DNA of 64,000 nucleotides from Isoetes taiwanensis (lineage: Eukaryota > Streptophyta > Lycopodiopsida > Isoetales > Isoetaceae), in NCBI GenBank assembly GCA_021234155.1, contig JAJEKV010000005.1:28360689-28424688 (forward strand), given 5' to 3'. Positions 2,701-52,900 of this stretch are shown here, one piece after another. The position numbers and the translations under genes were made by a program. Position 1 is the stretch's first letter, and each line of letters begins with the position of its first letter. The notes beneath the pieces are model-generated. The model searched no databases and was not told the origin of the DNA. It was given only the letters and a program-made list of their open reading frames with translations.

Positions 2701-3505
2701 GGATAATGATATATGGGAATTTAATTGCGAGATATGCAAGTTCTTTGAAGACAAACTGCTAAGCAGCATGGGACTCATAGATTCTTCAACTGCTGGATTC
2801 CACCGGTTAAGTTGGACCAGATGATGTTCTCCCATAGCAAAGCTGCCTTTCCAGTCATTAGTTTGGATGAGGTTCTGGATATTTGAAGCTTGAGACCTCT
2901 GTGCCTCGGTAAAGCATTTCCAAAACCTTTTAAGTTGTTTCTCTATAATAGGCAGCTGGCTTTCTGCCACATCTTTCTTTGTTTTGAGACTCTGTTCTCA
3001 ATCTTCTGTGTTACCATGTATTTCTACAAGTAATATATATACACTGCCGTTTCCCCGGTTACCAAGAAAAGAAAACTCAGTAGTCTTAATTATTTGATCT
3101 TTGCTGAGTTACAAACTGTTGTGCATGAGATCAAATAAATGTCAGGAAGATCTTGTACATGATGTTAATTTGTACAGGTTTGAAGACATGTGTACAGGTT
3201 CGGTGTATGATTTGGACAGGTAGTTGGCTTCAACGATAGCTACGACCATGGCAGGGATCAGCTCGATATCAAGCAGTGCTCTACAGTGTGGATATCAAGA
3301 TTCAGATGTATCCTGTGTACAGGTTTGAAGATGTACAGGTTTATAGTTTCACACATATAGTGTGACATGTACATACATGAACATACACATGCATGTCTAC
3401 ATGTACAGTGCTGCTTATTTATTCTGTATTATCAATGGAACAGTTCGTTTATTTCTCCCCTCTCTCTTTGTGTCTTCTCTCATAGATCCAAACTTTATCA
3501 TAAGG

Positions 3506-3690
3506 AGTGCCCAGTTTTGTCCATCTGGGCATGATATTTAGTTTTGGCCAGATTTGGCAGAAAAAAATTGAACGTTAGTCAAGCATAATAATGTTGAGTT
3601 TGAAGACATTGATGTGTTTGCTGTTACACGGCAGCAAGCAAGAAATGATGTCCAGTCCATAATTAAGGTGTGACTGCCAAAACCCTATCC
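3506..3690 (+). pseudogene. Ty3/gypsy gag-pol relic, part downstream of the LTR insertion
   Basis: After the right TSD the sequence continues the interrupted zinc-knuckle region: the residues ECP complete a second Cys/His-type phrase begun before the insertion. At about 3596-3655 it reads EFEDIDVFAVTRQQAR, close to the 'AVTRAQAR' phrase that lies between Gag and protease in many Ty3/gypsy polyproteins. Stops in between show decay. This continuity is the best proof that 1736-3500 is an insertion. Confidence 0.6.
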
Positions 3691-4095
3691 TATCCTACTA
3701 ATGATAAGGTGGAGCAATTATTGAAAAATACCAAGGTGATCAGAATTCTGCATACCATTTGCTTCTGGGAAGACCATGGCAAGCGGTTATTGATGCAAGA
3801 ACAGTCTGACATAAGGGTATTTGTACAATCATGGATGGAACTCATACTGCAATATTTTATGCTATTAATTTTCCGGTTTCAATACATATCACAACTATCA
3901 TCTTCAGTTTATTATACAAAGCTTACAAGGTTCCACAGCAATATTGATAAGCTGTGCCTCTTGATTCACTTCAGGGAAGTCAAGAGTGCTACACTGGAAC
4001 TATTTCCAAAGCTTACACTTGATGATGACGTCCTATGGGAAATGTTTATATCATATAAGATCTTTTTTTGGCTCGATTCACTCAAGTTTGAGTAA
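3670..4095 (+). pseudogene. 141-codon ORF, possibly gypsy polyprotein remnant
   Basis: It follows the gag-pol junction relic and begins near a NDKVEQLLKNTK phrase, which would suit the linker before a gypsy protease. I see no D(T/S)G protease triad or RT motif. Function not recognised. Confidence 0.25.
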
Positions 4096-34539: not shown

Positions 34540-36180
34540 CTTTGGTGTCCAGACATTTAGGACTTTAACAAAACGTCTTGAACGATTGAAAAAACGTGTT
34601 GTATTAACAGCTTGAAACATGAAGTTTTTAAATGTGTAAATGTGATAGTTCCTACAGTGCCAAGGAGATGTCAATTTTCCTACCATGGATAGTTCCTGTG
34701 GCTAGATTATTTTAAGAAAATAAAATCATTACCAAGAGGGAACTATAAAACGGGCATCTCCTATGGTTGGAAGGCATGTACAGATGAGTAAACCTTTATA
34801 CCACGTTCATATGCTATAACTAGTCTCCAGCTACACAAAAATATAACATTTGAGAGAAGAACCAATGCATATACTTCTTTGGAATGATTATAGAGCACAA
34901 AATACTACCAGAAATTCTGCATCAGAATATTGAAATAACATAGTTCTTTAGCAGACTATGTATCTTTGCCTTCGTGTAGAAGTCAACTGAAAGATAAAAG
35001 GTTAGAAGTTTCTTGATGTTCATCTCTTCCTAACATAAGACACTTAAAAGTGTTAATCTCTTCATTTGCTACTACTCCAGGGCCAATTAAAATAGGCTGC
35101 AAATGCAAAAAATGGAGTAAAAACCAAAGTTACAATGCAAATGAAAGATGACTTAAAATCCACCAAACCGATTGAATTTTAAAACCGGTATTACGAACTA
35201 ACAAAAATGCACGACATGTGATGATTCACCACTTCTAAAGCTTTGCAAACTTACCAAGATTTTTGGATATTCAAGCCTGACAAAGAAAATGATCTTCAGA
35301 TCTAAAGCTCATAGGATAGATAAGAAAGAATTCTGTTTACCCTAGATTTTAGCTTGCATTAAGCCAAATCAAGTCATTTCTTTCTTTCTTTCTTACAGGT
35401 TTCAAGTATTCGATAGAGAAACAGAGTGAAGAAGGGGTCTCTTCCAATTCCTTCTCAAGGAAGTTGATGGCAAAAAAAGGTCACACAGATAGAGATTGAA
35501 AAAATAGGAGCAAACTGGAGTTAACTTCGAAAATTCAAAGGTGTAAAATAAGATTAGGGTTTTGCAGAACTGGTGAGAAATTCGGTGACTGCAGGTCAAA
35601 AAAAAAGGGGGGAGTTAAGGCGTTAAGAAACCCTTGCTTCAAGTAATCGTTAAGAAATGCAGGGTAAAAAGTGTTCTTTTAAGCCTGAGATATGAACATG
35701 AAGCATAAAAAATCAAACCTCTTTTGAAGTCGTTCAAACGTGAAGGGTAAAAAATCTGTTAAAAAAAGAGCTTGAAGCAAGGCAGACTAACCTGCACAGT
35801 ATTTCTGAAGATAAGCCTAGCCAAAAATCGATCCAGGAATTTGCAAAATCGCTGTAGATATTTCTCTGCCCTAATACCGATAAATAAAGGAAAAGAAAAA
35901 TCGTGCTGAAAACCTCAAGATTTACCTTGTTGCTTCGTAATCTAGGCTCAGGCTCTGCCCACAAATAAGGGTGCGGCTCTAGAAATGGTGCTTTTGCCCC
36001 CTAAAATAATTGCTCCTTACCCTGTTTGACGCCATCGAAAGAAAGCACACTCTGCATTATGAATAGGAACCATATCAAAAAGCGACATAGCATTTCTTGA
36101 ATCTGTGTACCTAAGCCCTGGAAAGCAAAAGTTTTACAGGTTCTTGTTTACTCTTGCTTTATGACGTAGAAAATCTTTTT
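34540..36180. other. No recognisable gene
   Basis: AT-rich DNA leading to the TATA-bearing left end of the 36-43 kb element. Confidence 0.4.
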
Positions 36181-36200
36181 CTGAACTATGATCTGCAAAA

Positions 36201-36230
36201 GGGTATAAAATCACTAGTCGGGTACAAAAA
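36201..36230 (+). promoter_or_regulatory. TATA-containing promoter-like segment, left end
   Basis: GGGTATAAAATCACTAGTCG lies about 130 bp before the first ATG of the plus-strand gene and is mirrored at 43573-43602. Confidence 0.5.
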
Positions 36231-36334
36231 AACGCGAAAAAGCAAAGCAAAAAGCAAAGCAAAAGCAAACTTTTTTCGGTTCACATTTCGGTTAGCTCTC
36301 GAATCGAATTTTTACGCCATAACTACCTCTGGCG

Positions 36335-38215
36335 ATGGCGATGAAGCTTTTGACGAAGGAATGGTACCGCTGTAAATGGATTAAATGGTTGGAGGATCAA
36401 ATTACCGGCGAGGATTGGGAATCGATGCGGAATCATGGCTTCCTTGGCGGTAAAATTAAGAAATTTTATGTGAAGCCTCATTTAAAAGAACTGCTAGATT
36501 TTTCTTATCTCGAGCTTTATCCTCATGGTCTCGCGAACAATGAGCTCAGGAAGAAATTTGCCTTTGCATTTACTTGGGAGAATTGTAGTCGAGCAGCTCT
36601 TAACCCGGACGAACACAAGATAAACTGGGTTTCATTTAAAGAACAAGTTGACAGGTACCCAAGGAAGCTAGTTAAGCTCGAACCAAAACATTCCCTGGCC
36701 GAAACAGCCTCTCCAGGCAGCAGCAGAAGAACCACACCAAATCCCACACCATTGAAGCCAAGTAATGCACAGGTTTACTCTCATGCAAGTGTTTGTTCCT
36801 TTGCTAAACAGAGGTAGCTTAATGTTTAATGTTAGGGTCTTGGATGAAGAAGTGAATAGGTTGGAGGGTGAATTTGAATTGTGCAAGAAAGATAAGGAGA
36901 CATTGCAAAAGCAAGATCACCCTAAACGCAGACATGTGAATGAGAGAGATATTGCCGGGATCGGCAAAGCGTAGAAGACATAAGGTGTTGTGTGTCGAGA
37001 TCAATTTTTGGAATCCAAAGTAGAAAAGTCTGATTCTCGATAAGAAAAGAATTGAGGACTTGATGCGTGGACTTGATGCAGGAGAAATTCTATTGCAGGA
37101 AATTAGAGAGCCTTATTGAAAAGGTGGATGATCATCAAGTTGAGAAGAAGAATGAATTGGAAGCATTACATGGAGTGCTAGAAAGGGACCTGCTCAAATG
37201 GAAGAATTACAGGGCTAATTGCTATAACTTGAGTAGTGTAAATGCCTCCCCAGATTGGGTTCAAGTTATTGCAAAGCAAAGTTGCCATTGTGTTATGAAA
37301 TACCATGTTCTCGCATGTGGATTAGCTTTCCAAGATGACTACAAGATTAGTGCAAGGCTACCATGCCAACATGCTTATCATTTAATTTTGCACCGCTTCT
37401 TGTAGAGAATAAAAAATGCCTGGATTGTTCTATGGATGTCCCAATGAAATTCTTTGAAGAACTTGGCTTAGAGACCAATGCAAATGAAGGAGAAGAAAAA
37501 GAAGAACAAAGAAACGTAAGAATCATCTAAGAAAGTAAGTATTATTTATTTGCTTTGCTTTATTTGTGAAAAATTGCTTTTGTTGAAAAGTTTTGGTCAT
37601 GTTATTTGCAGGTGAAAAGTTACCAACAAAAAGGAAACATGATGACTATGTGGATTTAGATGAATTTGGTGAATTTGGTTGATGTGAATGAAGATGTCGG
37701 GTGATTCCGACCGTGCATATGAAGGTATTTTAGAAAATATTCCAAGTTCTTCGAGGGAAGGAGCTTCTTTGGGAATTAAGAGCAGTTGAGAAGAGCTACA
37801 ATCAATATCAAGGAAACTAGCCTTGAACCTCAAAGACTATTCTTCCCGATCCTCAGAATCCAACTCGATATTCACATCGAATGCCGCGGGAAACGCATTA
37901 ACCCGATTGTGGATCAGCGAGGAGTCGGACAAATTGGTGGTCACAATTCGCAGATGCCACAAATGTAATTACCAAGCCAGTGGATGAGCAAGACAAAGAA
38001 GCGGGATCGGGAGGATGGAAGAGAAGTTCAAGAGGATGCAACAAAGAATACAAAGAATTTGAAGAAAGCTTTTTGGCAAAGCCAAAAAAAAGAAGAAAGC
38101 AATCAAACCTATTCCCAAAGTAGTTCCGAGAAGGTGCAAGTTACAAAAAGGTGACAAACGCACTCCAATAGAAAGAATATTAGATGCCTATAATGGGAAG
38201 GGCTAAACTTTGAAC
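36335..38215 (+). pseudogene. Coiled-coil protein with RING-like zinc finger, decayed
   Basis: The first exon starts at 36335 (ATGGCGATGAAG) and encodes about 145 residues of an unrecognised basic/aromatic domain (KEWYRCKWIKWLEDQI..., WENCSRAALNPDEHKINWVS), ending near a donor at about 36771. Charged coiled-coil segments follow (36840-36975; 37067-37220, IEKVDDHQVEKKNELEALHG). At 37270-37440 a RING-like finger is visible: Cys-rich start, then PCQHAYH (C-x-H-x2-H), then after a frameshift near 37385 ENKKCLDC (C-x2-C). An intron-like gap lies at about 37533-37611. Further low-complexity Lys-rich coding is interrupted by stops to about 38205. RING proteins usually act as ubiquitin ligases; the role here is unknown. 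Confidence 0.5.
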
Positions 38216-38424
38216 CCGTGAAACCACTGTATTTGACATTGTCATATTTTCAATTTGTAAGATTTCTGTTAAAATAAAATCTTTTCTAAATATTAGAATC
38301 TGTAAACTTTTCATTAAAATAAAATGTTTTCATTGAATATGTGAATGTAATCTTTTTCATAGTTGACAATGTCATATCTTAGTTTGTGTCTAAAGTGTTT
38401 TTAAAATGTATCTCTTGTTTGTAG

Positions 38425-39270
38425 GGAGGCACAAAGACAAACCTGTTGGTCCTTGATTTGAATGGTGTGCTTATGAAGAGTTGGCATAAGCATGACAAAC
38501 ACTGGAACACCAATACCGCAAATGGCGAAGAAAACCGGACACAACCAACAAAGTGCCGGGTTTGCGCACTGTGTTTGCATAATTTCATGGACTGGCCCTA
38601 GAACATTTTGAAATTGCTATTTGGTCCAGTATGAACCGCTACAAACATCATTGAGTGCCCGCAGCAGATGTTGCCCGCAGATTATCTTATTAAGTTCAAG
38701 TTCATTTGGGAAGGAGCACAATGTTTGAAATTGCCTTATCCACACCCAAACCCAATCCGCACAAGCGGCCTATTTGAAGCCACTTTCTTATGTCATTGAA
38801 GCATATCCCTGAAATGAAGAATGTCTTGTTGGTGGATGATTCTCTCAGATAAATCTTTTTTCACCAAGTGTACCATTCTTTTTAATAGTTAGCTCATTTC
38901 AGTTTGATGAGGGCATGTAATGGTTTGAAAAGATGAAGGATGTATTGTTTGGTTGGGCTTCGGAAAGTCCCGAGCCTACAAAATTTGTGAAAGAACATCT
39001 TGCCCGGTAAATTGTCAAACAAGAAGACTTTGATATTTTGGATTTGTGTTCCAAGCATGTGCGTGAGAATCCAAGATGGGCTATTCCTGCGGAAACAAGG
39101 CGTTGCCATGATGGAACTTCGGTAAGCAATTTATTTTTTGCTTGATTTGCTTGATTTGCTTGGCTTGCCATATCTTCTTACCTTAACTGGAGTTCTGCTC
39201 TTGCAGGTTCCTGGAAGACAGTTGTGAGGCAATGGATGTTAAGGAATGTCAAGAAAAGTGTAAGATGTGA
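38425..39270 (+). pseudogene. FCP1/NLI-type phosphatase-like gene relic
   Basis: An exon after an acceptor at 38424 begins TKTNLLVLDLNGVLMKSWHK, matching the N-terminal DxDG(T/V)L catalytic loop of HAD-type CTD phosphatases, here DLNGVL. Then, with frame changes, come HFEIAIWSSMNRY, YLIKFKFIWEGAQC, LSYV/HIPEMKNVLLVDDS (the distal Asp-Asp motif) and WFEKMKDVLFGWASESPEPT, KFVKEHLAR. TAA stops at 38918 and 39008 and several frameshifts kill it. A donor at 39122 and an acceptor at about 39206 lead to a short last exon ending in TGA at about 39270. Such phosphatases act on phosphoserine in nuclear proteins. It may be the C-terminal part of the preceding gene or a separate cargo gene. Confidence 0.7.
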
Positions 39271-39439
39271 AAAATACAACCGGGCAACCATAAAATTTTC
39301 TTCCGGTTGCCACATTTTGAATGCACATCGTTGTGCAATGTAATGTTAGATGTGAATATACCTGGCATATCCCCTGGTTGCCAGATTTTGAATGCACATC
39401 ATTGTGCACTCTATTGTAAACTGTTGTAACAATATCAAT

Positions 39440-42400
39440 ATGAATGTCAATGTTTTGTACTATGCACTTGTGAACTCAAACCCAAATCGAGAGCATTGAA
39501 CTCATTCCCCGAATGTAAAGATGACATGATTTTCTGGCAGGTCTCTTCTCCTAACATGTACATGTTGCCACCAATATCATTCATGTCAAACTTAACATGC
39601 CTTACCAAGTGGTCAGAATTGAAGCCACGGGCTTGTCCACCAAAGAATTGAAAAGTTAGAGTGTCTAATTGTCGATAGTAGTGGCCTGATACTATAACCT
39701 CTCCAACATTGTATACATTCCCCCACTCATCAACATAAGAATCCAAGAATGTTTGCTTTTGTCTCTCAGACACACTAAAGTAAGTAAAAGTCGACACCCT
39801 CATCATTATTTTCTTCCTTTGTGTGTACAAAGAAAGTTATTCTTAACTTCTAAGATGTCACCGAGGTAATCAAGCTCACCCTCATCATCATCATCTTCTT
39901 CTTCCTCCTCCTCATTGGATAATTTGTCTTCGTGATTCACCGGTTGTACTTCTTTTGGTTTTAATACACCTTCTTTCCAGCCCTATCCTTCTCTTGTTAA
40001 TGCAATTATCCCAATCTCCATGAAAACATGCTTGGCAAAACAAGCAAGGCATCCGGTACTCACTTTTGTTGATCCTTCCTATCAAGTGCCCTAATGCTAT
40101 GTAACTTTGAGCTCCCATTCAAAGTTTTCCATTCCTTCTTTTCAGACTTATCTATGTCCTTAGCTTCAATATTCCAAAAGTACCCGGAAAGCATTGACTC
40201 AAAGCAAGTTAATGCAAAAGCAAAGCAAAGCAAATTCGTAAAGCAAATGCAAGAGCAAATTGTTAGCAAAGATAATCAAAGCGTAAATCAAAAGTAATGA
40301 GACATCCACTGAATTGAATGAAAGCCAACATAAATGCAGAAAGCAAATGCAGAGCAAATTTAATGAATGCGTAAAGCAAATGCAAAGCCAATTCAAAGCA
40401 AAGTTAGTCAAAGCATTAATCAAAGCAAAAGCAAAAAGCAAAAGCAAAAGCAAAAAGCATCAAAGCAATTCCATCGTGAGCAAAGATAATCAAAGGTAAA
40501 TCAAAAGTAATGAGACAACCACCTGAATTGAATGAAAGCCAAGATAAATGCAGAAAAGCAAATGCAGAGTAAATTTAATGAATGCAGAAAAGCAACCAAA
40601 GCCAATTCAAAGCAAAGTTAGTCAAAGCATTAATCAAAGCAAAAGCAAAAGCAAAAGCAAAAAGCAAAAGCATCAAAGCAATTCCATCGAGAGCAAAGAT
40701 AATCAAAGGTAAATCAAAAGTAATGAGACAACCAATTGAATTGAATGAAAGCCAAGATAAATGCGTAAAGCAAATGCAGAGCAAATTTAATGAATGCGTA
40801 AAGCATATGCAAGGCCAATTCAAAGCAAAGTTAGTCAAAGCAAAAGCAAAAGCAAAGCATCAAAGCAATTCCATCAAAGCAAACACTAGGCCAGCCTATC
40901 GAAAAATACCTCTTTTTTTCATTGGCACAAGGATGGTTTTCAATGTACCATTTTAGGAATTCCACCGTGATCCTTAGCACATTGCAGCTTCTGTGAATCA
41001 TACTTCAGTTGCTCCTTTGCTAGAATTAATTTCAAAACAGCTCCAGCTCCATCATGTTCTCCTTTACCATGAGAACTTGCAAAAAAAACACCATAAATAT
41101 TCCAGTAGGATTGTTCACAAAATTTCTACCTATGTACCGTAATGGGTCCGCACCTTTGAATTGAGATGTGCAACCATCACTCCAAAAACATGGTTGCTGT
41201 ACTCTATATTCATTTGTTTCAGCTTAATCGTGCATGGACTTTCAAGCAAAGTGGTTGACAAACTCTTGAATGCTCCTTGCAATCTAAATGTAAAATGTGT
41301 CTCCCTTAATTATTCTTCGATCCAGACACGAACTTGTTTCTCGATCTGAACAAGATGCATGTGTTCCTAAATTCTTCCTCTTCCTTTTCTCAGTAGGATG
41401 TCTATAGGTAATGTGAACAAGAATAGTAATTTGGTCGGTATGCCAATGGCATGATTGTACTTCCTTCTCAATTTTGAGGCTATAGTTCTCAAAGAAAATC
41501 AATTATCGATACAATAGTATTCTTTGGAAAGTTGGCTAAGCATTGCTTAAATTGCTTTTGCCAATGTGCCCGGTAATTATGTGGAACAAATTGCACAAGT
41601 GTCTTGTTGGCATAATGAATAAACTCTTGTAATCGGAGCGCACTTGTATGCTAATCTTGTGACTTTAGTTGGTTTTTTTCCTCCCTCTTACTTAATTGAA
41701 CTCTCCTTCAAATTACTGTGCTCTTCTGTCATACAAGCAGACAATTTGGTGATGTTAGGTCCTAAACAAGTTTCGTAAAAGTAAATAACACTAAAACAAA
41801 TTAATATACCTTCTCAAACCAAGTTTCCACTCAACGTAAATGTCTTTCATTGTCTTTTCCTTTGACAGATTGGTAATGAAAAGCTACAACGTTAGCTCAT
41901 TTCCAAAATAGATATACATGAATGTTAAATGTACCTTTTCAAACCACAAGATTTACAAGCAACCATCGACAGAATGCTTGTGCCATTCTTCTAAGGGATC
42001 TTGCTTTTCACATACAAGTTCCCTCCACAACTCACTAGTAGACTTGTAAGTCATCAATTTAGCTTTGCATTCATCTCCTTCTCCACACACACCGCAGAAT
42101 TGCGGTGAACAATTTTCATGAACACCTCTAGGGTCTCGTTTTATTCGTCGCGCTCGTTTGAAGAACAAATTCCAAATGGATGTGATAATCGACAAAGAAC
42201 AAGTTTCCCTCATGAAGTCTTCTAACAAATGAAGGCTTCACCCCTCTCAAATGTTTGTTGTGCAATGTTGATATGTGGATATTGTTGCTTGAAAGCCATA
42301 TAGAACTGGAGCTGCGCAGACAACATGTAAAATTCATTTTGTAATGCATAAAGCAAAATCATGAAAGTACTGGAAACAATGAAGCAAATCAATCATAATA

Positions 42401-43335
42401 AGTAATTAATCAAAGATACTCGGTGACATTGCGTAATGCAAATTTATAAAGCAATAGGGATCAAACAATGCGATAGCAAATTCATACATAAAACATGTGA
42501 AGCATAAATTGTTCAACTTCAACATGAAAAGTTTTATCAAACACTACAAATTAACACCGACTGTAAACATTCGTGATATAAATACCGGGAGACCTCAAGC
42601 AAAATGGATTGATGGTCAACTTTATTGCCATTTTCTCGCCTTAAACTTCCTCACATGTTTTTGTATGGAGAAACTCTTGTGTTTTCAGTCCAGAACGGCA
42701 GCATAACCTTTTTCACTTCATCATGAAGATGTAATCGACCTTTTCTTCCTCAAAAACATAGACCGTGGACCTCGATTCCCTTTTCGCCATTACTCTTCTT
42801 CTATAGGTCGCACAAATAGATTTTCTAGGCACTTCAAGCAGCCCGCTAACGCAGAATGATTAAGTTTATTCTCGTGGATGTAACCATTTGTAAAGTTGAC
42901 CTTTTGCGCCGAATGTCAATCTTTTCGGTTCGCGTTTGTGGTAAATTTTGCATAGTTTCCTTCACATTAGCAATCACTTTTTGCATAACCTTTGTCTCTC
43001 TTTTTATGCAACGCTTACTTGTAAAGGTACATTTGGTTTTATCTTTCTTACAAATCTGTCCACAATAGCAGCCTTATCTAAAGCATTGGCATGTTTTGTC
43101 AGATCCTCAAAATAATCATGCATATCCTTTGAAATCTCCTGAATTCTTCTCACTTTGAGGCTTAATTCTTTGAATTAGCAGCGCTTCCATCAATTCCTTT
43201 TGCGTTTCCTTGATTCCCTTTTTACGGCAAAGCATCAATTTCACGAAAAATCAGTCTCTTCTCATCTTCATCCATTCAAATTATGAATATGAGAAACTCC
43301 AATCCCGATTCTCCATCGTGAACCAAATTTCGAGA
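39440..43335 (-). pseudogene. Transposase-like (putative RNase-H-fold) protein relic, multi-exon
   Basis: Minus strand, N- to C-terminal: a short charged start (about 43290); VKPSFVRRLHEGN (about 42200-42250); a domain with CGVCGEGDECKAKL and LWRELVCEK...EEWHKH (41950-42110); LQEFIHYANKTLVQF (about 41600); IDF then, after a base loss, ENYSLKIEKEVQSCHWHTDQ (about 41440-41510); WSDGCTSQFKGADPL (about 41140-41190); HGKGEHDGAGAVLKL (about 41025-41075). After the AAAGC-repeat intron, SEKKEWKTLNGSSKLHS and a zinc motif CLFCQACFHGDWDNC (about 39990-40160), then a 127-codon tail to 39447. The order 'DFxENY...SDGxxSQFK...HGKGxxDGxGAxxK' matches a transposase-like family common in plants and animals. 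I cannot name the superfamily. Frameshifts and stops make it inactive. Confidence 0.6.
40190..40900 (+). repeat. 213-bp tandem repeat rich in AAAGC, about three copies
   Basis: The landmark TAATGAGACA(T/A)CCA(C/A) occurs at 40295, 40508 and 40721, a constant 213-bp spacing. Each unit contains long runs of AAAGC/AAAAGC. The Lys/Ala/Ser-rich ORFs read from it are translations of the repeat. It sits inside the minus-strand transposase-like gene, where an intron is expected. Confidence 0.85.
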
Positions 43336-43572
43336 ATGGTAAGAGAGGGCAGTTCCGTAACCCCGCCCTCCTTCAATTTCGCAATTACACTCCATCATTC
43401 CCCGCCAAAGCCAACCGTAACTGATTCCCCAATAATCGGACAGCCATGTCATCGATCCGTAGGAGTGATCGAGTTTGGGGGGAATTCACAGTTCGCTGTG
43501 TGCTGAGAAGAACGAGCAAAGCAATTCGATAAAGCAAAAGCAAAGCAAAGCAAGCAGACGTCCGGACACTAC

Positions 43573-43602
43573 TTTTTCAACCCCACGAGTGATTTTATAC
43601 CC
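43573..43602 (-). promoter_or_regulatory. TATA-containing promoter-like segment, right end
   Basis: Inverted partner of 36201-36230, reading GGGTATAAAATCACTCGTGG on the minus strand, about 240 bp upstream of the first conserved coding of the minus-strand gene. Confidence 0.5.
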
Positions 43603-43676
43603 AAAACCTCTGCAGATCACATGCCATTTCTAACCAAGAACTGAAATAATACATGACTTTACCTGGACGGTTTTTC

Positions 43677-43935
43677 ATAGTCGAATACTCTTCAAGCTGA
43701 AAAAATGATCCCTTGCACGATTTACCCCAAGCTCATGCAGATGCAAAAAAACAAATAAAAAAGAGGGACTGTGGGGATTTCTCAGCGATTCGGAAGGAGA
43801 CTGTTCGTCAGATTTGAGCTCTGTTCGGAAAGGAGGCGTTTCTCGACGGAGGTGGGGAGGGGTCGCGGGGTGGCTATTTTGGGAGGAAGGCGCGGAAGGG
43901 AGGGCGTAATCCGAGTGCGAAGCCATAGCCAAGTC
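43677..43935 (-). CDS. Unrecognised Ser/Pro-rich ORF
   Basis: A minus-strand frame starts near 43932 with MASHSDYALPSAPSSQNSHP and continues with Arg/Glu/Ser-rich residues. The GC content is high against the flanks, which fits a first exon or a CpG-rich promoter as much as a whole gene. No family recognised. Confidence 0.2.
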
Positions 43936-44027
43936 CCATGGATAGCGCTTTGTGTAGCAGGTGTCGATAATGGGGCTGGATGACCGACCATTCTGAGCAA
44001 AGCGGCCAGCTTTTAGCAAATCATCAA

Positions 44028-44113
44028 GATATGCTAGGTATATGCCAGCATATACTTGAATATGCCCACATACCCACATAAACGAGGGTTTGCCCCCCTA
44101 GGGGCAACCCAAA
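44028..44113 (+). repeat. Palindromic short repeat R3, copy 3
   Basis: GATATGCTAGGTATATGCCA, GCATATACTTGAATATGCCC, ACCCACATAAACGAGGGTTT, then GCCCCCCTAGGGGCAACCC. It abuts repeat R2 directly. Confidence 0.8.
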
Positions 44114-44114
44114 A

Positions 44115-44270
44115 AGGCTAAAATCAATGGCTCAGAAATGGTGCACTCTAGATGTACGCATAGTACATCCATTTGAATACATCACGAAATCATAGGAAAA
44201 CCTTAGTGAAAAGCGTACAAAAACACAAAGAAAACCCCCTGTTATTATGCTACATATTAACTCATTATGC
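44115..44270 (+). repeat. Dispersed ~150-bp repeat R2, copy 2
   Basis: Same sequence order as 16484-16635; see there. Confidence 0.8.
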
Positions 44271-44975
44271 TCAACACTTTCATTAGGCCCTTTTTTAGCC
44301 CCTTAGTTTGGTATGGAAAAAACTAACAAATTTAAAGACTTGAAGAAGTTAGACATTGAAACAAATAGCAAGTGCACTAAAGTGACAAAAAGGCCTTGTA
44401 TTCAAAGTTTTCAAAATAACTACAAAATTAAAAGCAAAATTGTAAAAAATGTATATTGTCATAACACCAAAGCATTTTCCCATTTGCGACGCCTGCCTTA
44501 ACGAACGAACATAAATTTTGAAAATCTCATTTCGTGACTCGTTAAGCCGTAATCATCAGAGCTATTCGTGTCCTCTGCTTTAAATCAAAAGCAGATGAAC
44601 TTGAATGATCTTTCTCATCACTGTCTATCAATAAAACTTCATCTTCATCTCTAGCAACTTTTTTAGGTGTTTTACCAGATGCTAATCTTAGTAGCGCTTG
44701 AGATATAGCAAGCAACATGTTAGCAGAAGCTCTGCTCACAACAAACTCAAAGGAATCTAGAGCAACCTTTCTAGTACCTTAATTCTGTTGACTTGTAGTG
44801 CTTCCAAAGCTCTTTTCGTGAGGGATTCTAAAGCTCGAATGTCTCTTAACAAGATATGAACAACTTAAATGTGTGTATCGAATGTCTTTCAACAAGATAT
44901 AAACAATTTAAGTGTGTATTAAGGTGTTTGAAATTGAACGTGGAAACATCAAGTCCATATGTAAATCTCATCATT
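44271..44975. other. No recognisable gene
   Basis: Two short Lys/Ser-rich ORFs without signatures (44313-44501 plus, 44542-44739 minus). Confidence 0.35.
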
Positions 44976-45048
44976 ATTCGGAGGACTCGAAATTGCCAAC
45001 CACAAGGTTAAAAGCCTTGCGCTCTAGAAACTGAGCTAGAACGACAAC
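44976..45048 (-). tRNA. tRNA-Lys(TTT) pseudogene or SINE head
   Basis: The minus strand reads GTCGTTC as acceptor strand, TAGCTCAGTTTCTAGAGC as D-arm, and CAAGG-CTTTTAA-CCTTG, a perfect anticodon arm with anticodon TTT. The T-arm (GGCAATTTCGAGTCCTCC) no longer pairs, and the 3' acceptor strand matches only in part. It is therefore a tRNA-Lys-derived pseudogene or the head of a tRNA-Lys SINE. Confidence 0.6.
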
Positions 45049-46400
45049 ATGTAAATGAGTAACTAAAATTCCCCTTCTACTTAAAGCTTATGTGATATAA
45101 GATCCAGCTAGTGGTAATACTACTATAAAATCTTAATATATAACGGTTTAGTGTGCTGGATCTAGCCCTAGAGGGCTATGATTAGACAGCTAAGATTTGT
45201 TTTTAGATCACGACTAACCCTAGTATGCCCATTGTTGAACATGAAGGAGGGGTCGAGTTGCAAATCCTCACCACAGATGAACCCAGACCCAAAAGCCTTG
45301 GATGTAAGCCTTACACCTATTTTTTTTTTGTTTGGTCGATAGTAGTAAAGATGGTGCTTCATCGCTCCCAGTGTTGTATTTTGTGGCGGATTTATTGTTC
45401 CTGTGTAACATTGTGGGACTCAACATTTCAAAAAAAAGATAACAGTTTTGTCAACAAAGTAAAAATGATAATCGACTCGCAAATTGCAACACTCCAGGTC
45501 CATTTGTGCATGGTAATACTCTTTTTCTTCTGTAGATCTTTTTGCTCTTAACTTATATATGAAGTTTTATTCCAATTTATGCTTCATCTTTAGGTTTTTT
45601 TGATAAGGAATCACATATAGATGCATTTGAAGATTGAATTATGTAATGCTATCATATAGACAATGTAGAAGAACAGATTGTTGGAGGTTTGCTACTTGTG
45701 AGGCAATATTACAATGTCAGGGGTGGGCATGATTGTAAGTTGCCTTTTCCATGATTGTCCGACAAATTTAGGAAACACGATTCTCCCTTTATACTATTGT
45801 TGTTTCGTTTTCTGATTATTCCATCTATCAAGGTGGAGTATTACTGGACTATTTATTTTTTGACATGCAAAGGCTTGCCTTTTCGCGAAAAGAAAAATTT
45901 TATCTGGAGTAATCACTCATGTGTACATAGTAGTGATTTTGGCATGAATTAGATAATTTTGTTTCAAGATAACTCAATAGTAAGCAGGATATGACTAGCA
46001 TAAGGATATAGATTGTTACATCTATTCTTTTGTGAATTCTAGCGTAATAAAAAATATGTTACTTTTCAGTCTTATAATGAAATAAAAGTTCAACTTTGCT
46101 CGCTAAAATTGTGTGCTGATAAGGCTTGAAGGAGGCTCGTGCAAACTTTTTTCCTCAAGCTTCAGTTACGTGTAATTCGACTTTCGGCCTATTAGACCAC
46201 TTCCAAATTCCTGAAGAGTTATGAACGATTCATGCATGCAACAAGTTTATATGATTTCAAGGAGTAACTACCCCAACTGTGGAAGGGCAATTGACCAGCA
46301 TGATCTATAGGTAGAAGATCCTCTCAATTTAAATATTCTATTGCATGTTTTGCAAAGGCAATAAGTTTGCAAGGCATTCAAATTATCATACTAAGCCTTA
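45049..46400. other. No recognisable gene
   Basis: AT-rich; the ORF at 45225-45551 has no signature. Confidence 0.35.
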
Positions 46401-46499
46401 GGGATTGATTGTTGAAGTATACTAAGCCTAGGTGGCATGCTTAATCCACCTTGCCATGTTGGCAAGGGATAGAATAGAGGGAACTTCAAGCACTTGAAG

Positions 46500-47490
46500 A
46501 GTCGGCACCCTTCCCCAAGATGAACAAGGCCAGGACTTGGCGTGGCTACCTCACCCGATGAGGGAGAGGCCGGACCCGTGAGATGGACCCGAGAAAGGTT
46601 CTTTGAGGTTGTCTTTTCCTTACAGGCGATCCTTGGGAGGCTATATGCTAATCGCCCCCCGAGGAGCTTCAGTTCCCCTATCGGACCGTTGAATCACGAT
46701 TCATAACCCCGCTTTGAGCAGGTCCAAAAAAATCCAAGATTGGTCCAAGAGAACTTAGCAAACCACGAAGCGTCCTGTGGGCGATCGTGTAAAATCCCAA
46801 GAGCTTGTTCAAGTAGAATGAGGCTCCGGAATGGCAATTTGACTTTGCCATATCGTCCAGAATAGTGAAATTACCCCAGGGACCAAGTTACACGGTCAGT
46901 TTTGACAACAAAGAAAACATGAACACTCTACATCGCAAAGATTCTCGCAGAGGCTACCTCCCTAGGCGAATTGACTACGAATGTGTTGGACATGAGCTAC
47001 TTTGGCACTTTTTGGAGCAGGGGTGGTCTTTTGCCCACGAAAATTGGTCCCAAGGTAATGTCGACATTCTAAGCCTATTGAAAAAGTCAATTCGCAGTTC
47101 TGGAGTGCGGGAGTTGCCCGTCCATTGTCAGGGCCATAGGGAGAGGACATTTGGGACAAGCTACTTCCAAAAGGTTTTAAAAGTTTGTCTTCTCTCTCTA
47201 CATGATGACACTATGCATGATCCTAGTCGAATCTTACTAGGATATGGCCTCTGAAACATAAACCCTATGTGTTGCTAGGTTATTGAAGGGTTTACGTTAT
47301 GGAGGTCGAATTTTGGTCATTTGCACTTGGGACATGGTCGAGAAGTTGCAATTGAAGATGCAAAGCAATAGGAACTGATGGAATGGGGTTTGTATCTATC
47401 CTCCTCCCGGTGTGCCAATCAGAACTCAAGTGCCGCTTTTGCAGTAGGAAGATATTGTCTGGGATTATTCTGGATGGCCGATAGATGTGA
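46500..47490 (-). repeat. ~1-kb unit S, inverted arm 1
   Basis: The reverse complement aligns along its length with 48893-49880 and with each unit of the 57.2-62.4 kb array. Shared landmarks on the unit's forward strand include TTCGGAGGC, TGGACTTAGAA, GTCGACATT, AGTCAATT and GGCCTTGTT. ORFs in either direction are not conserved between copies, so I regard it as non-coding. Confidence 0.75.
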
Positions 47491-47725
47491 CCTTGTTTTT
47501 CAGTTGCCATGGCTCTGCATGTATGTTTAGAGATGGTGCATACGGGTTTACGTTTTGGCCTCCAAAACGTAAACCCCGTATATCGCTAGGTTATTGAAAG
47601 ATTTATGTTATAGAGGTCGAGTTTTGGTCGTTTGCACTTGGGACATTGTCGAGAAGTTGCAATTGAAGATAAAAAGCAATAGGAACTGATGAATGGGGTT
47701 TGGATCTATCCTCCTCCTACTGTGG
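47258..47725 (+). repeat. Local duplication inside arm 1 with a palindrome
   Basis: 47265-47425 (GTTGCTAGGTTATTGAAGG, ACTTGGGACATGGTCGAGAA, CTGATGGAATGGGGTTT) is repeated at 47585-47705. Between them, 47541-47580 is a near-perfect palindrome (TACGGGTTTACGTTTTGG and its complement). Confidence 0.7.
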
Positions 47726-47809
47726 TAAATTTAGAAGTCAAGAGCTAATTGTATGCAGATAATTTTTAATAGAAGTACCCAAAGAGTTTTATGGAGGAGG
47801 TTGTTTAAG

Positions 47810-48715
47810 AGAAGGCAACCTAAATATTTGCCAAGGTGGCTCAAACATGCCACGTGGGCTCCAACATGCCACCTATAAGGCTCTGACATGCCAAAGTGGC
47901 TCCAACGTGCCACCTAGGCTCCAACATGTCAAGGTGGCTCAAACATGCCACGTGGGCTCCAACATGCCACCTAGGTCCTAACATGCCAAGGTTGCTCCAA
48001 CATGCCACCTAGGCTCTAACATGCCAAGGTGTCCCCAACATGCCACCTAGGCTACAAGGTGGCACAAACATGTCAAGGTGTCTCAAACATGCCATGTGGG
48101 CTCCAACATGCCACCTAGACTCTAACATGCAAAGATGGCTCCAACATGCCAACTAGGCTCCAACATGCCAACTAGGCTCTAACATGCCAAGGTGGATCAA
48201 ACATACCACGTGGGCTCCAACATGCCACCTAGGCTCCTAACATGCCAAGGTGGCCCCAGCATGCCAAGATGGCTCAAACATGCCATGTGGGCTCCAACAT
48301 GCCACCTAGGCTCTAACATGCGAAGGTGGCTCAAACATGCCACGTGGGCTCCAACATGCCACCTAGGCCCTAACATGCTAAGGTGGCTCCAATATGCCAC
48401 CTAGGCTCTAACATGCCAAGGTGGCTCCAACATGCCACCTAGGCTCTCACATGCCAAGGTGGCTCAAACATGCCACGTGGGCTCAAACATGCCACCTAGG
48501 CTCTAATATGCCAAGGTGGCTCAAACATGCCATGTGGGCTCCAATATGCCACCTAGGTTCTAAGATGCCAAGGTGGCGCAAACATGCCAAGATGGCTCAA
48601 ACATGCCGCGTAGGCCCCAACGTGCCACCTAGGCTCTAAGATGCCAAGACGACTCCAAAATGCCAAGGTGGCTCAAACATGCCAAGATGGTTCAAACATG
48701 CCAACTGCAACTTCT
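47810..48715 (+). repeat. 19-bp minisatellite, more than 40 units
   Basis: The unit is GCTCNAACATGCCANNNNG, alternating among GCCACCTAG, GCCAAGGTG and GCCACGTGG variants. The Trp/His/Pro-rich open frames in it follow from 3 x 19 bp giving a 19-residue translated period. Confidence 0.9.
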
Positions 48716-48892
48716 CGACCATGTCCCAATTGCAAAAGATCAAAACTCGACCTCCATAACGTAAACCATTTAATAATCTAGCAACACACAGAGTTTACGG
48801 TTTGGAGGCCAAAATGTGGTCATTTTTATGGATAATCTCAGTGTACAATCTCTAAACGTTCAAGCATTATCATTGCAACTGAAAAAAACGTG

Positions 48893-49880
48893 GTTCGGAT
48901 CTATCGGCCATCCAGAATAATCCCAAACAATGTCTTGCTACCTTAAAAGCAGCTCGTGACTTCTAATTGTCACCATGGGAGGATAATATATCTAAACCCC
49001 ACTCCGTCAGTTTCTCTTGCTTCATGTCTTCAACTGCAACTTCTTGACCACGTCTCAAGTGCAAATGACCAAGACCCGACCTCCAAAAGTAAACCTTTGA
49101 AGAACCTAGCAACACACAGGGTTTACATTTCGGAGGCCATATCCTAGTCAGATTTGACCAGGATCTTGCACAGTCTCATCACATAGAGAGATGGTGTTGA
49201 CACTAGAAGATGGACCGTTAAAACCTTCCGGGTGCAGTTTGTCCCAAATGTCTTTTTCCTATGGCCCTGGCAACGGACGGACAACTTTCGCACTCCAGAA
49301 CTGTGAATTGGCTCTTCCAATGGACTTAGAACATCGACATTACCCTGGGAACCAAGCTTCATAGGCAGAAGACTACCCCTTCTCCAAGAAACGCCAATGT
49401 AGCTCATGTCCAACACATTCATAGTCAATTGACATAGAAGGTGGTTGCGGATTACTGACGTCTAGAGTGTTCGTGTTTTTTTGTTGCTAAAACTGACCAT
49501 GTAACTTGACTCCGGACGATATGGAAAACTCAAATCGCCATTCTGGAGCCTCTGTACGTCCCAAACGAGAAAACACTTGGGTTTCTACACGGTAGTCCGC
49601 AGGGTGCATCACAGTTTGAAAAGTTCTCTCGGACCGATTCTTGGAATTTTTTGAACCTGCGTGAAGCAGGTTCCTTAAACAAAGGATTCCACGGTTTGAT
49701 AGGAAACCCGAGCTCCGTAGGGGGCGTTAGCGTACGGCCTCCCGGAGGAGCGCTTCCAGGAAAGGCTGCCTCAAAACATTATTGGGGTCCATCTCCTAGA
49801 GCTTGGCCTCTCCCCTCTGGTGATGTAGCCCCGCAAATTTCTGGCCTTGTTCGACATGGGGAAGGTGCCAGCTCTAGAGA
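48893..49880 (+). repeat. ~1-kb unit S, inverted arm 2
   Basis: Forward-strand copy of the unit, from AATGTCTTGCTACC and TCCGTCAGTTTCTCTTGCTT through ATTGACATAG to CTGGCCTTGTTCGACATGGG. Confidence 0.75.
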
Positions 49881-49914
49881 GAGAAAGAGAGGGAGGGAGA
49901 GGTAGAGGGAGAGC

Positions 49915-50180
49915 ATGTTGGAGCCTCGATGACATATTTGAGCCACCTTGGCATGTTGGAGCCCATTTGGCATGTTTGAGCCACCTTGGTATGTTGGAGC
50001 CACCTTGGCATGCTAGAGCCTAGGTGGCTTGTTGGAGCCCATGTGGCATGTTTGAGCCACCTTGGCATGTTTGAGCCACCTTTGCATGTTTGAGCCTAGG
50101 TGGCATGTTTGAGCCACCTTGGCATGTTTGGGCTACCTTGGCATGTCGGAGCCTATGTGGCATGTTGGAGCCCTACAACC
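49915..50180 (-). repeat. 19-bp minisatellite, inverted second block
   Basis: Units such as TGGCATGTTTGAGCCACCT are the reverse complement of the 47.8-kb array; about 13-14 units. Confidence 0.85.
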
Positions 50181-50728
50181 ATTATCTAAAGGGACAACCT
50201 ACCTAACTCAAGGTCAACTATCAGCTTACGAACTACGGCTAAGCTCATTTTCAGAAAACATCTTGAATCTATGGAGAATACCGTGCCTCTATTCCATTCC
50301 ATATGATATATGCTTGGTTCGGAATCAAGTACCAAAAGAAAAAAATTCTGAAATAAACTTGGATGTGTTTGTAGAGGATGATCTGCAAAGGAGAAAAATA
50401 CAATTGATATTATCAAGAAAAAGTTATATTGTAGGTGTTGTATAGGTTTTTTTGATAAGATACAAGGCTATTGATCTATTTATTAATTTATTTTCTTCGT
50501 CTCTTCGAAGTAACACTTGTGTTATGTAGCTGAACTTGTAGGTTCTAATATATTTGTATAATTTGCACCTGAGGTTGGTTGAAAAGAACGAAGAAAGATT
50601 TAGATAAAATCAAGAAGAATAGGTTCAGCAGCTTCACCATCAAAAATTTGGCCACATCTTTCTATACTTTGTCTGTATAAAAGAGCAAGGATGGCCACAA
50701 AGCAAGTCCAAATATAAAACAACTCTAA
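50181..50728. other. No recognisable gene
   Basis: AT-rich; probably the 3' flank of the minus-strand hevein-like gene. Confidence 0.35.
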
Positions 50729-51229
50729 TTATGATGACGACGACGATTGCAATGGCAATGGTTGTGATGGTGATATAGATGAAGGAGAAGGAGACGGGGA
50801 CAGAGATGGAGATGAAGATGGGGAGGAAGAGGGAGATGGTAGAGGTGCAATACTATTATTGTTACTTCCATTACATTGGCTCTGACATCCATTACCACAA
50901 TAAGCTAAAGTATTACCACAATATCCATACTTGCTACAACATTCATTATTCATACAAAGGGCATCGTTAGCTTGAATACCACATCCTCTAGTTGTGTTGG
51001 TAGTAGCAGTACTATTGCACTGGCTCTGGCATCCAATACCACAATACTCAGAAGTGGTGCCACAATAGCCAAATTGGCTGCAACATTGATTAGCATCACA
51101 AAGAGTGCCTCCAATTGCTTTACCACAATCTTGTGCTGTGGTGGCTGATAGCCCCAAGCATGTCAATAGAAGAAGAACACTTGAAATGTTGGATATACCT
51201 TGAAATGTTGAAATCTTGGATATACTTAT
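50729..51229 (-). CDS. Hevein-like protein with two chitin-binding domains; start codon missing
   Basis: The minus-strand frame is open from a TAA at 51263-51265 to the stop at 50729. It holds a hydrophobic signal-like stretch ([20 protein letters not shown]). Two complete hevein (chitin-binding type 1) domains of eight cysteines follow: one from [10 protein letters not shown] with SQFGYC, the other from [10 protein letters not shown] with SKYGYC. Both keep the Ser and aromatic residues that contact N-acetylglucosamine. A Ser/Pro-rich tail of about 45 residues ends the protein. No GH19 chitinase domain follows. No ATG occurs in frame; the best site is an ATA at 51227-51229 in a good context (ACCATAAG). 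So the start was lost, lies in an unseen exon, or is non-AUG. Likely role: secreted chitin-binding defence protein. Confidence 0.75.
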
Positions 51230-51266
51230 GGTGATGTTGAATGAAGAACCAAATTTAGGGCTTTAA

Positions 51267-51296
51267 CTAGTAACGGGTGCCCGGCGTTGTCGGGCA
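51267..51296 (-). mobile_element. Helitron 3' terminus (minus strand), second copy
   Basis: Minus strand: hairpin TGCCCG-ACAACGC-CGGGCA, 7 nt, CTAG, then T. The spacing is the same as at 22167-22196. It ends about 40 bp upstream of the candidate start of the hevein ORF. Confidence 0.6.
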
Positions 51297-52900
51297 TAAA
51301 TACGGTTCTATTGCAGGAACTGAACTTAATTTCTTGCACTTGTAAATGATCTTGCCTCTTGTTGCATTTGGATAATTAACTTTTTCCTCCAGGTGGCCTA
51401 TTGATTCCTATATCTTTTAGTTTGGGTTAGTCCCATTTTTTTGGACGTGTTTTTTTTCGCATTGGACACATCACTAAAAGAGGGGCATTAATGTATGTTT
51501 TGTGGTGACTTGCTCTAGAATTGGGAATATAGGTAGAAACTTTGCCTTAAGCCTGGATAACATATAATCATAAACATGGCCATCTAAAAAAATGTTCTAA
51601 CATGGACCTTGGTGGCAACCATAATAATATATAAATTATTGGTCTATTTTTTTTTTTTATAATAGCTATATACATGTGCTTCAAACATAGATACATACGC
51701 CGATCTAGTGTGTTTTAAGTGAAGTCATGATTGTCCAATGTAGAACTTCACTTATATTGAATAAACTGCTCAGAATGCAGGTGGTAAACCAAAGAGCTGT
51801 TAGGGAGAATGTGTATATATGTGTATATGTATTGTAAAAAGCCAAACATCTATTAGGAAATGTGAATATACCACTGCTTGAAATGACATCGTTAGGCTTA
51901 TCCTTCACCAAAACTATTGTCATTCTTTTTAACTACTTTGGAAGACACCCTTGATTTAAAAGCATTAAGATATATTGATTGTAAATTTGAGGATCCCTTC
52001 TATTAATCGAAAGGCTTATCCTTCACGAAAACTATTGTCATTCTTTTTAACTACTTTGGAACACACCCTTTATCAAAAAAATATTGTGATTTATTAGACT
52101 ACTTTGTTTTCATGCAACCAACTCTAATAGAAACAATGCACATACATGATACTTCGATAATTGCAAGACAACAAAGAACAATCGTGAATGCCTTCAATCG
52201 TGAATGCCTTTTGCAAACCTCATTGCAAAAGTATAGGTTTTATTAATAAAACTCAAAATATTAAGATACTTTTGGCATTTAATATGTTAATAATCAATTA
52301 CGAAATGCATTATTGTGCAAAAGCATATGACATTTAAATAAAACTAATAGACATGTTTCATGTTTACACATCAAATCGAATTTATGTTCGTCAACGCTAG
52401 AGCACTTCTTTGGGTTCACAAAGAGTGCATGTGCAACATAACCATGGCTTTTATTCACCTATCCTTAATATACACAATGTTGTTATAAAGTTGTGGGGAT
52501 TCCCGAATCATGTGCTATTTAAACTAATGCATTCTGCTTCATAGAAGAGCTTGGGAAACCGTTATACAACATTCTGCTTCATAGAAGAGCCTAGGGTAAC
52601 CGTTATATATAAGCAACCTTTTTTCCTTGGAACGGACATTAACCTTTTTTTTCCTTGCAAGGGACATTGTGTGCTCCTCCCAGCACCTTCAAAGATGTGA
52701 CGTTCCACATATTTATATGTCTTTTTGAGTATAAATACATGACACGTCATTATGAATAATTAATGGCACATTAATTATTCATAAGCTAAGCTTAGCTATG
52801 TTAATAATTCATTATTAAAGTGGAAACCTAACCTAAAACCCTAATTCGAATTTAGGGCTTAACCTAATATTAAAAAGGGCTAAAATACCAAATTAGCTAA
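51297..52900. other. No gene; local duplications
   Basis: GGCTTATCCTTCAC followed by ACTATTGTCATTCTTTTTAA occurs at 51894 and 52013 (119-bp period). CATTCTGCTTCATAGAAGAG occurs at 52529 and 52570. The region may be Helitron interior. Confidence 0.45.

Follow-up and report, generated by a model that had tools for sequence, protein, structure and literature searches.

A DNA transposon lineage of the lycophyte Isoetes taiwanensis that very probably pairs its transposase with a RING-H2-like/NIF-type partner gene

What kind of unit sets a transposase-like gene face to face with a gene for RING-like and phosphatase-like domains, and does the second gene belong to it? The question is raised by a locus within a 64,000-nucleotide stretch of the Isoetes taiwanensis genome (contig JAJEKV010000005.1, positions 28,360,689 to 28,424,688; hereafter, the window), in which a first-pass annotation made from the sequence alone had placed a two-gene DNA transposon relic, with convergent genes between inverted ends, at positions 36185-43620. 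The comparison of paralogous flanks and fetched copies defines a 7,402-bp DNA transposon at 36201-43602: the unit is real, and the earlier limits overshot it by 16-18 bp at either end. With inverted ends, a target duplication and empty sites, it is a genuine class II element of the terminal inverted repeat type. It very probably represents a lycophyte DNA transposon lineage with 4-bp target duplications and two convergent genes, one encoding a transposase and the other a partner with RING-H2-like and NLI-interacting-factor (NIF)-type domains.

The terminal inverted repeats (left, 36201-36230, + strand; right, 43573-43602, − strand, located by inverted-pair search and copy comparison) are imperfect: 26 of 30 bp, or 87%, are complementary, exactly the identity first counted. 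Their reading as TATA segments is not supported: these are the element’s termini, and the corresponding ends of three related elements (GGGTCTAAGTTAGATATTGGGGTAC in L020 and L021, GGGTGTAAATTTGATAGTGGTACC in L022) contain no TATA box. We searched the 1.658-Gb assembly (1,110 contigs) and fetched 14 full copies with their flanks, all of which have both ends; the first 42 bases are identical in 14/14 and the last 42 in 12/14. The alignment of copies that had been proposed for finding the outer repeats and the duplication delivered both, namely 30-bp ends and a 4-bp duplication. The latter is AAAA in the window (left copy 36197-36200, right copy 43603-43606, the right one assigned by comparison of copies), and it is perfect in 12 of the 15 copies, the window included (AAAA, TCAT, TATG, CATG, TAAT, TGCT, TCAT, TATA, AGGT, CGTA, TATG and TCAA); L004, L007 and L008 have none.

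A genome search was made with a query that joined the left flank to the element’s first 40 bases. The best 40 places comprise the window itself, seven places that match the flank only, ten that match from about 36190-36200 onward and 22 partial flank matches. Among these matches, the seven left-flank paralogues are 89-97% identical and end exactly at 36200. The element is absent from all five of them that we fetched, which carry a single AAAA in four cases (L015-L018) and one extra A in the fifth (L019). The insertion site itself (35700-36200) lies inside another repeat family, of which at least seven near-identical flank copies are without the element.

The partner gene occupies the + strand of the left half. 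It comprises a conserved N-terminal domain (MAMKL...FTWENCSRA; 36335-36694, 87% to the majority sequence of the copies), a coiled coil with a RING-H2-like finger (36756-37527), a charged linker region (37617-38203, placed by alignment to the majority) and a NIF/FCP1-like domain (38425-38849). The last is broken by stops and frameshifts, and its motif I, DLNGVL, is read in the window itself. The FCP1/NLI-phosphatase-like assignment of the first-pass annotation stands: PF03031 matches the majority sequence with an E-value of 4.9e-11 (43 bits, cut-off 21.8) and four intact relatives with 61-76 bits (one at E 3.3e-20), and in these relatives it is covered over nearly its whole length, a likeness to the NLI-interacting-factor/FCP1-type phosphatases (UBLCP1, SCP, CTDNEP1). 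Of the solved structures, UBLCP1 comes nearest (5e-12), then CTDNEP1 (9e-10) and the SCPs.

The domain differs from these phosphatases in being transposon-borne and in one residue of its active site. NIF/FCP1-type phosphatases share the motif Asp-x-Asp-x-(T/V), the second Asp of which is the general acid of the family; transposon-type NIF sequences have Asp-x-Asn in its place. The invariant columns of eight aligned sequences include D7, K111 and D130-D131, which are the first Asp, the Lys of motif III and the Asp pair of motif IV, and N9, at the position of the second Asp. In a search with the query residue masked, we found Asp-x-Asn in 36/36 transposon-type rows, including the window and all 14 family copies. 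The Asn finding draws on this search and on a pattern open to either Asp or Asn; the pattern behind the selection set had required Asn and was excluded. Motif I was covered in 37 of 44 sequences, with no match in L028, L038, L040 and L043-L046, and L034 and L037 are one place among the Asn rows. The sole Asp among the 37 rows belongs to a host-type phosphatase, L031 (DLDHTL). Mere decay is disfavoured as the source of the Asn, since the rest of the active site is kept. A literature search on the Scp1 D98N substitution found nothing.

The RING-like/coiled-coil protein is likewise upheld by the copies: their majority sequence reads CSACG..CQHAYHLIC..CPDC (damaged in the window) and matches zf-RING_2 at E 2.3e-5, its 25 bits falling just below the curated cut-off of 27.3. 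The finger ligands CxxC ... CxHxxHxxC ... CxxC are intact in seven of nine rows (L009, L010, L020, L021, L023, L025 and L029), a set that leaves out L022 and L026, both broken there; L024 has a Tyr where one His is expected, and L027 has its final ligand pair displaced. The N-terminal domain has relatives in L020, L021, L022, L023, L025, L026 and L029, and its majority sequence matches no Pfam model. In the loci inspected, a stop and then splice-like sites stand between the RING-linker frame and NIF, and the reading of the partner as one protein is putative.

The transposase gene runs on the − strand and consists of an N-terminal part (42654-43226), a middle part with Cys/His motifs (41971-42311) and a C-terminal part with a Cys cluster (39525-40182), all three placed by alignment to the majority, and of a damaged core (40903-41629) recognised by open reading frames and motif conservation, with DF/ENY (frame-shifted), WSDGCTSQFK and SHGKGEHDGAGA. 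Two of the motifs originally reported are present as described, SDGxxSQFK in the frame 41032-41223 and HGKGxxDGxGAxxK in the frame 40940-41125 (both −). The third, DFxENY, is split in the window, with DF and ENY in different frames that meet at 41495-41496. The family has the motif order VSVIDF(A/V)ENY ... WSDGC(S/T/A)..QFK ... HGKGEHDG; the WSDGC and HGKGEHDG cores are invariant in five members and DF(A/V)ENY in the four that cover that part. By this order the protein may be RNase-H-like, the D, D and E/D of the motifs being its candidate catalytic acids, and we infer that the transposase moves the element by cut-and-paste.

Profile searches, which the first-pass annotation had recommended, placed NIF above the cut-off and RING below it and gave no convincing model match for the transposase. 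An intact 627-residue relative had no Pfam match; five aligned members had none that convinces, the best being a sub-cut-off hit to an unrelated peptidase pro-domain (E 0.002), and neither query matched the Mutator-like element (MULE) transposase model. In the PDB the best hit reached only E 0.6, and the profile gave none. None of 56 pattern matches in viral contigs was confirmed as a relative, and five motif strings did not occur in the literature searched.

The window copy is a relic, as shown by the stops and frameshifts in each of its RING, NIF and transposase parts. It diverges by 4.7% from the majority of all 15 copies, and the other 14 by 2.2-4.1%. Within the best 150 of 4,323 NIF candidates obtained in protein searches of the genome, seven matches of the window’s own family (86-91% identity) span residues 1 to 139/140 of 140 and are free of stops.

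Do the two sides travel together? The first-pass annotation had proposed that, if the two genes are never adjacent elsewhere, the unit is a chance neighbourhood; they are adjacent many times over. On the DNA level, the left half has 40 listed matches, counting the window. At 30 of them the right half lies within 8 kb on the same contig, correctly ordered and oriented; one of the other ten is rearranged, and nine are without a right half among the matches listed. On the protein level, we set the best 150 NIF candidates, supplemented with 32 and 16 picked NIF rows (from PF03031 genome matches and DxNG-probe matches, respectively), against the best 150 of 6,231 transposase candidates, some places being duplicated. 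A NIF partner lies within 9 kb at 59 of the 150 listed transposase places, against 0.3 expected by chance, and all 59 pairs are convergent. A listed partner accompanies 15/17 transposases of at least 70% identity, 24/44 of 60-69%, 20/75 of 55-59% and 0/14 of 50-54%. In a random sample of 12 from the remaining 91 transposase places, NIF stands as expected in six (L039, L040, L041, L042, L047 and L048). These pairings, together with the flanks that stop at the element’s edge and the duplications, stand against a chance neighbourhood of unrelated relics, in favour of which we found nothing and which we regard as extremely improbable.

The same modules recur in diverged families. Among 13 loci scanned, the full set, i.e. 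N-terminal domain, RING and NIF facing the transposase, is found in L020, L021, L022, L023, L025, L026 and L029, and L024 has the set minus the N-terminal match. In the stretches read of L030 and L032, NIF is present and this transposase is not; L031 gave no module match. Four of these families have defined elements of their own, all starting with GGGT: L020 (7,097 bp, duplication ATTC, end GGGTCTAAGTTAGATATTGGGGTAC), L021 (7,099 bp, ATAG, GGGTCTAAGTTAGATATTGGGGTAC), L022 (6,633 bp, ATGC, GGGTGTAAATTTGATAGTGGTACC) and L025 (6,889 bp, TATA). A GTCCGGAC palindrome at the transposase-side end (43560-43567 in the window, where it adjoins that end) is common to these four and the window element. 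Joint transposition of the two genes has taken place repeatedly. Such ends were sought in L023, L024, L026, L027, L028, L029 and L037 and not found. The NIF tree groups L022 with L025 and L023 with L024 and L026, as the transposase identities do; we do not claim congruence, since six of ten inner branches are weak.

Selection between families was gauged by Nei-Gojobori estimates of omega (the ratio of nonsynonymous to synonymous change), with near-saturation pairs excluded. For NIF, omega is 0.15 for L022/L025 (78% identical), 0.12 for L023/L024 (74%), 0.19 for L023/L026 (83%) and 0.19 for L024/L026 (70%), with a synonymous divergence (dS) of 0.6-1.4 in these four pairs; the L020/L021 value of 0.35 comes from too few differing sites. 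Pieces of the transposase give 0.08-0.19 in all 28 pairs, which are not independent, that pass the filter (dS >0.3, proportion of synonymous differences pS <0.70). By these two ranges, NIF is under purifying selection between related families (70-83% identical), about as tight as that on the transposase. The label ‘cargo’ given to the RING/NIF gene understates this conservation.

Several observations weigh against a partner that is held throughout the lineage. None of the 14 listed transposases of 50-54% identity has a listed NIF, and the other six of the 12 sampled places have no NIF match in the stretch read. L027 has RING and transposase with only a 17-residue NIF remnant (E 0.002), and L028 has the transposase with neither RING nor NIF. 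The most distant NIF pairs give omega of 0.44-0.65, values that are uninformative as dS is near saturation. For RING, omega is 0.37 (L023/L024) and 0.41 (L024/L027) over 46 codons, indicating weaker selection, and its Pfam scores are sub-cut-off throughout, the relatives reaching 16-21 bits or having no RING match.

What, then, does the second gene do? That it is kept under selection in several related families suggests a use to the element in managing its host. Most likely it serves as an accessory factor, and its action may be on silencing or on protein turnover in the host. One alternative is that RING and NIF are captured pieces of host genes, carried in the manner of Pack-MULEs and functionless for the element. 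NIF is indeed a host-type domain with many strong PF03031 matches in the genome, and the whole domain is missing in some lineages (L027, L028). A passenger would drift, however, instead of showing omega of 0.12-0.19 between families 70-83% identical; its D, N, K and DD residues would hardly be invariant, and its position and direction would hardly be preserved across groups with NIF domains that are only ~32-53% identical. We consider a passenger improbable. A host donor was not found with a probe of the plant DxNG clade (150 places listed, 34-43% identity). Separately, contig C1018 holds 12 strong PF03031 matches (among the matches listed) at ~22.9-26.8 Mb, perhaps a host gene cluster.

Three functional readings are left to compare. 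NIF could still function as a phosphatase, its general acid having changed, with the RNA polymerase II tail as its target, for more transcription of the element, or the proteasome, for sparing of its proteins: invariance extends to the nucleophile Asp, to the Lys of motif III and to the Asp pair of motif IV, and the nearest structures are those of the C-terminal-domain phosphatases and of UBLCP1, a proteasome phosphatase. The Asn that replaces the second Asp in every transposon-type row, where host-type L031 keeps Asp, makes this rather unlikely. Alternatively, the partner may not be directed at the host at all and may assist transposition directly, through DNA binding or targeting of the transposase, much as the second open reading frame of Harbinger-type elements encodes a transposition co-factor. 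The conserved N-terminal domain of no known kind beside RING would fit such a role, as would the AAAGCAA clusters of the window family, which lie at either end and inside the intron array and are candidate binding sites. Against it, a DNA-binding co-factor would not usually combine NIF with RING (or with a Ulp1-like exon), and no DNA-binding domain of note is among the Pfam matches; we regard it, too, as a minority possibility.

As for the host-directed accessory factor, we tentatively propose that the modified NIF pocket of the putative partner protein binds a phosphorylated host protein and that the RING part directs ubiquitin-type modification, or removal, of this factor. The targeted factor would be a limiter of the element, belonging to the silencing or transcription machinery, and the partner would thereby act as an anti-silencing or accessory protein. 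It is conceivable, though far from assured, that this reflects a lineage-wide strategy, in which a modified, possibly phospho-binding NIF joined to a ubiquitin/SUMO module (in most families read this is RING-H2, in another a putative Ulp1-like protease) acts on host proteins to protect or boost the element. Such a strategy would have been kept by selection through several families, and other kinds of transposon in the genome may have it too. Few accessory genes of plant transposons that counter silencing or aid transposition are known, and the one described here is conserved and has an unusual domain make-up that lends itself to testing. Since open reading frames are present in several related families of this lycophyte genome, its effect on the host can be studied by experiment. 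Should the Asn pocket bind phosphorylated host proteins, it would be a natural case in which a mobile element has put an enzyme fold to new use.

How does this lineage relate to described systems? The resemblance to MuDR, remarked on in the first-pass annotation, is one of layout only: in both, the inverted ends enclose a transposase gene together with one other gene. Mutator-like elements make a 9-bp target duplication, in contrast to the 4 bp here, and as no MULE transposase model matched either, we reject membership. Sola elements have 4-bp duplications and GRG-type ends; the present lineage, a possible member of that superfamily, is like them in its 4-bp duplication, GGG ends and acidic-motif transposase. 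VANC of VANDAL elements lifts the silencing of its own family, binds short motifs repeated in non-coding parts and carries DUF1985/DUF287 (PMC5735166). The window family resembles it in having a short motif, AAAGCAA, that recurs at the termini and within an intron, and differs in that its partner has RING and NIF instead of the DUF1985/DUF287 of VANC; an anti-silencing action of the partner is, by analogy, a parallel in which we place low confidence. By title and opening of the abstract, none of the papers listed in our literature searches links an NIF/FCP1, HAD-like, C-terminal-domain phosphatase, RING or Ulp1 gene of this sort with a transposon; a Repbase entry may exist.

The AAAGCAA excess is a lead only, as it stems mostly from one array. 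The word occurs 51 times in the window element (4.8 expected) and 50 times each in L003 and L011, at both ends and in the intron array, which consists of ~3 tandem repeats of ~213 bp between transposase exons (40206-40880); 42 of 77 AAAGC/GCTTT sites fall within 40201-41000, i.e. in this array. In L020, L021, L022 and L025, AAAGCAA does not rank among the top ten words, though L025 has AAGCAAA 11 times (3.5 expected).

A variant of the partner is seen in the best DxNG-probe places, L033-L036, which by eye are another family of the same transposon lineage, with the NIF motif DINN. Here NIF faces pieces of the same transposase type: in L037 (which contains L034), BLAST to the transposase gave E 1e-10 and 2e-13 for the core and 9e-19 for the C-terminal part. 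Upstream of NIF lies a QQKDGDSCGLYV exon that, by its motif, is likely a Ulp1-like protease, its Pfam matches to Peptidase_C48 being below the cut-off (E 0.011 and 0.034). Ulp1-like proteases are borne by plant transposons of the KI-MULE and CACTA kinds; the likeness extends to this exon, whose match is sub-cut-off and which sits beside a NIF gene facing the present transposase type.

NIF may ride in more than one kind of transposon. A further NIF family, DMNGVLLKC, follows long unnamed open reading frames in L030 (oriented 2894-3820) and L032 (2540-3514), which share only the NIF part at the DNA level. L032 also has, at 575-1180 (−), a reading frame with DUF7869 (E 2.6e-14) that carries a QLDNCVGQNKNR motif, which we take to resemble another transposase kind, and a NIF-like piece of 37 residues (E 9e-4) lies on the strand opposite this frame.

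Lastly, first-look candidates were far more numerous for the right part of the window element (41000-42500; 664) than for the left (36280-37700; 74), and many right-side derivatives may exist in the genome. In the right flank (43603-51800), AACATGC occurs 41 times (1.6 expected) and AGGTGGC 35 times (0.9 expected), perhaps marking a separate repeat array.

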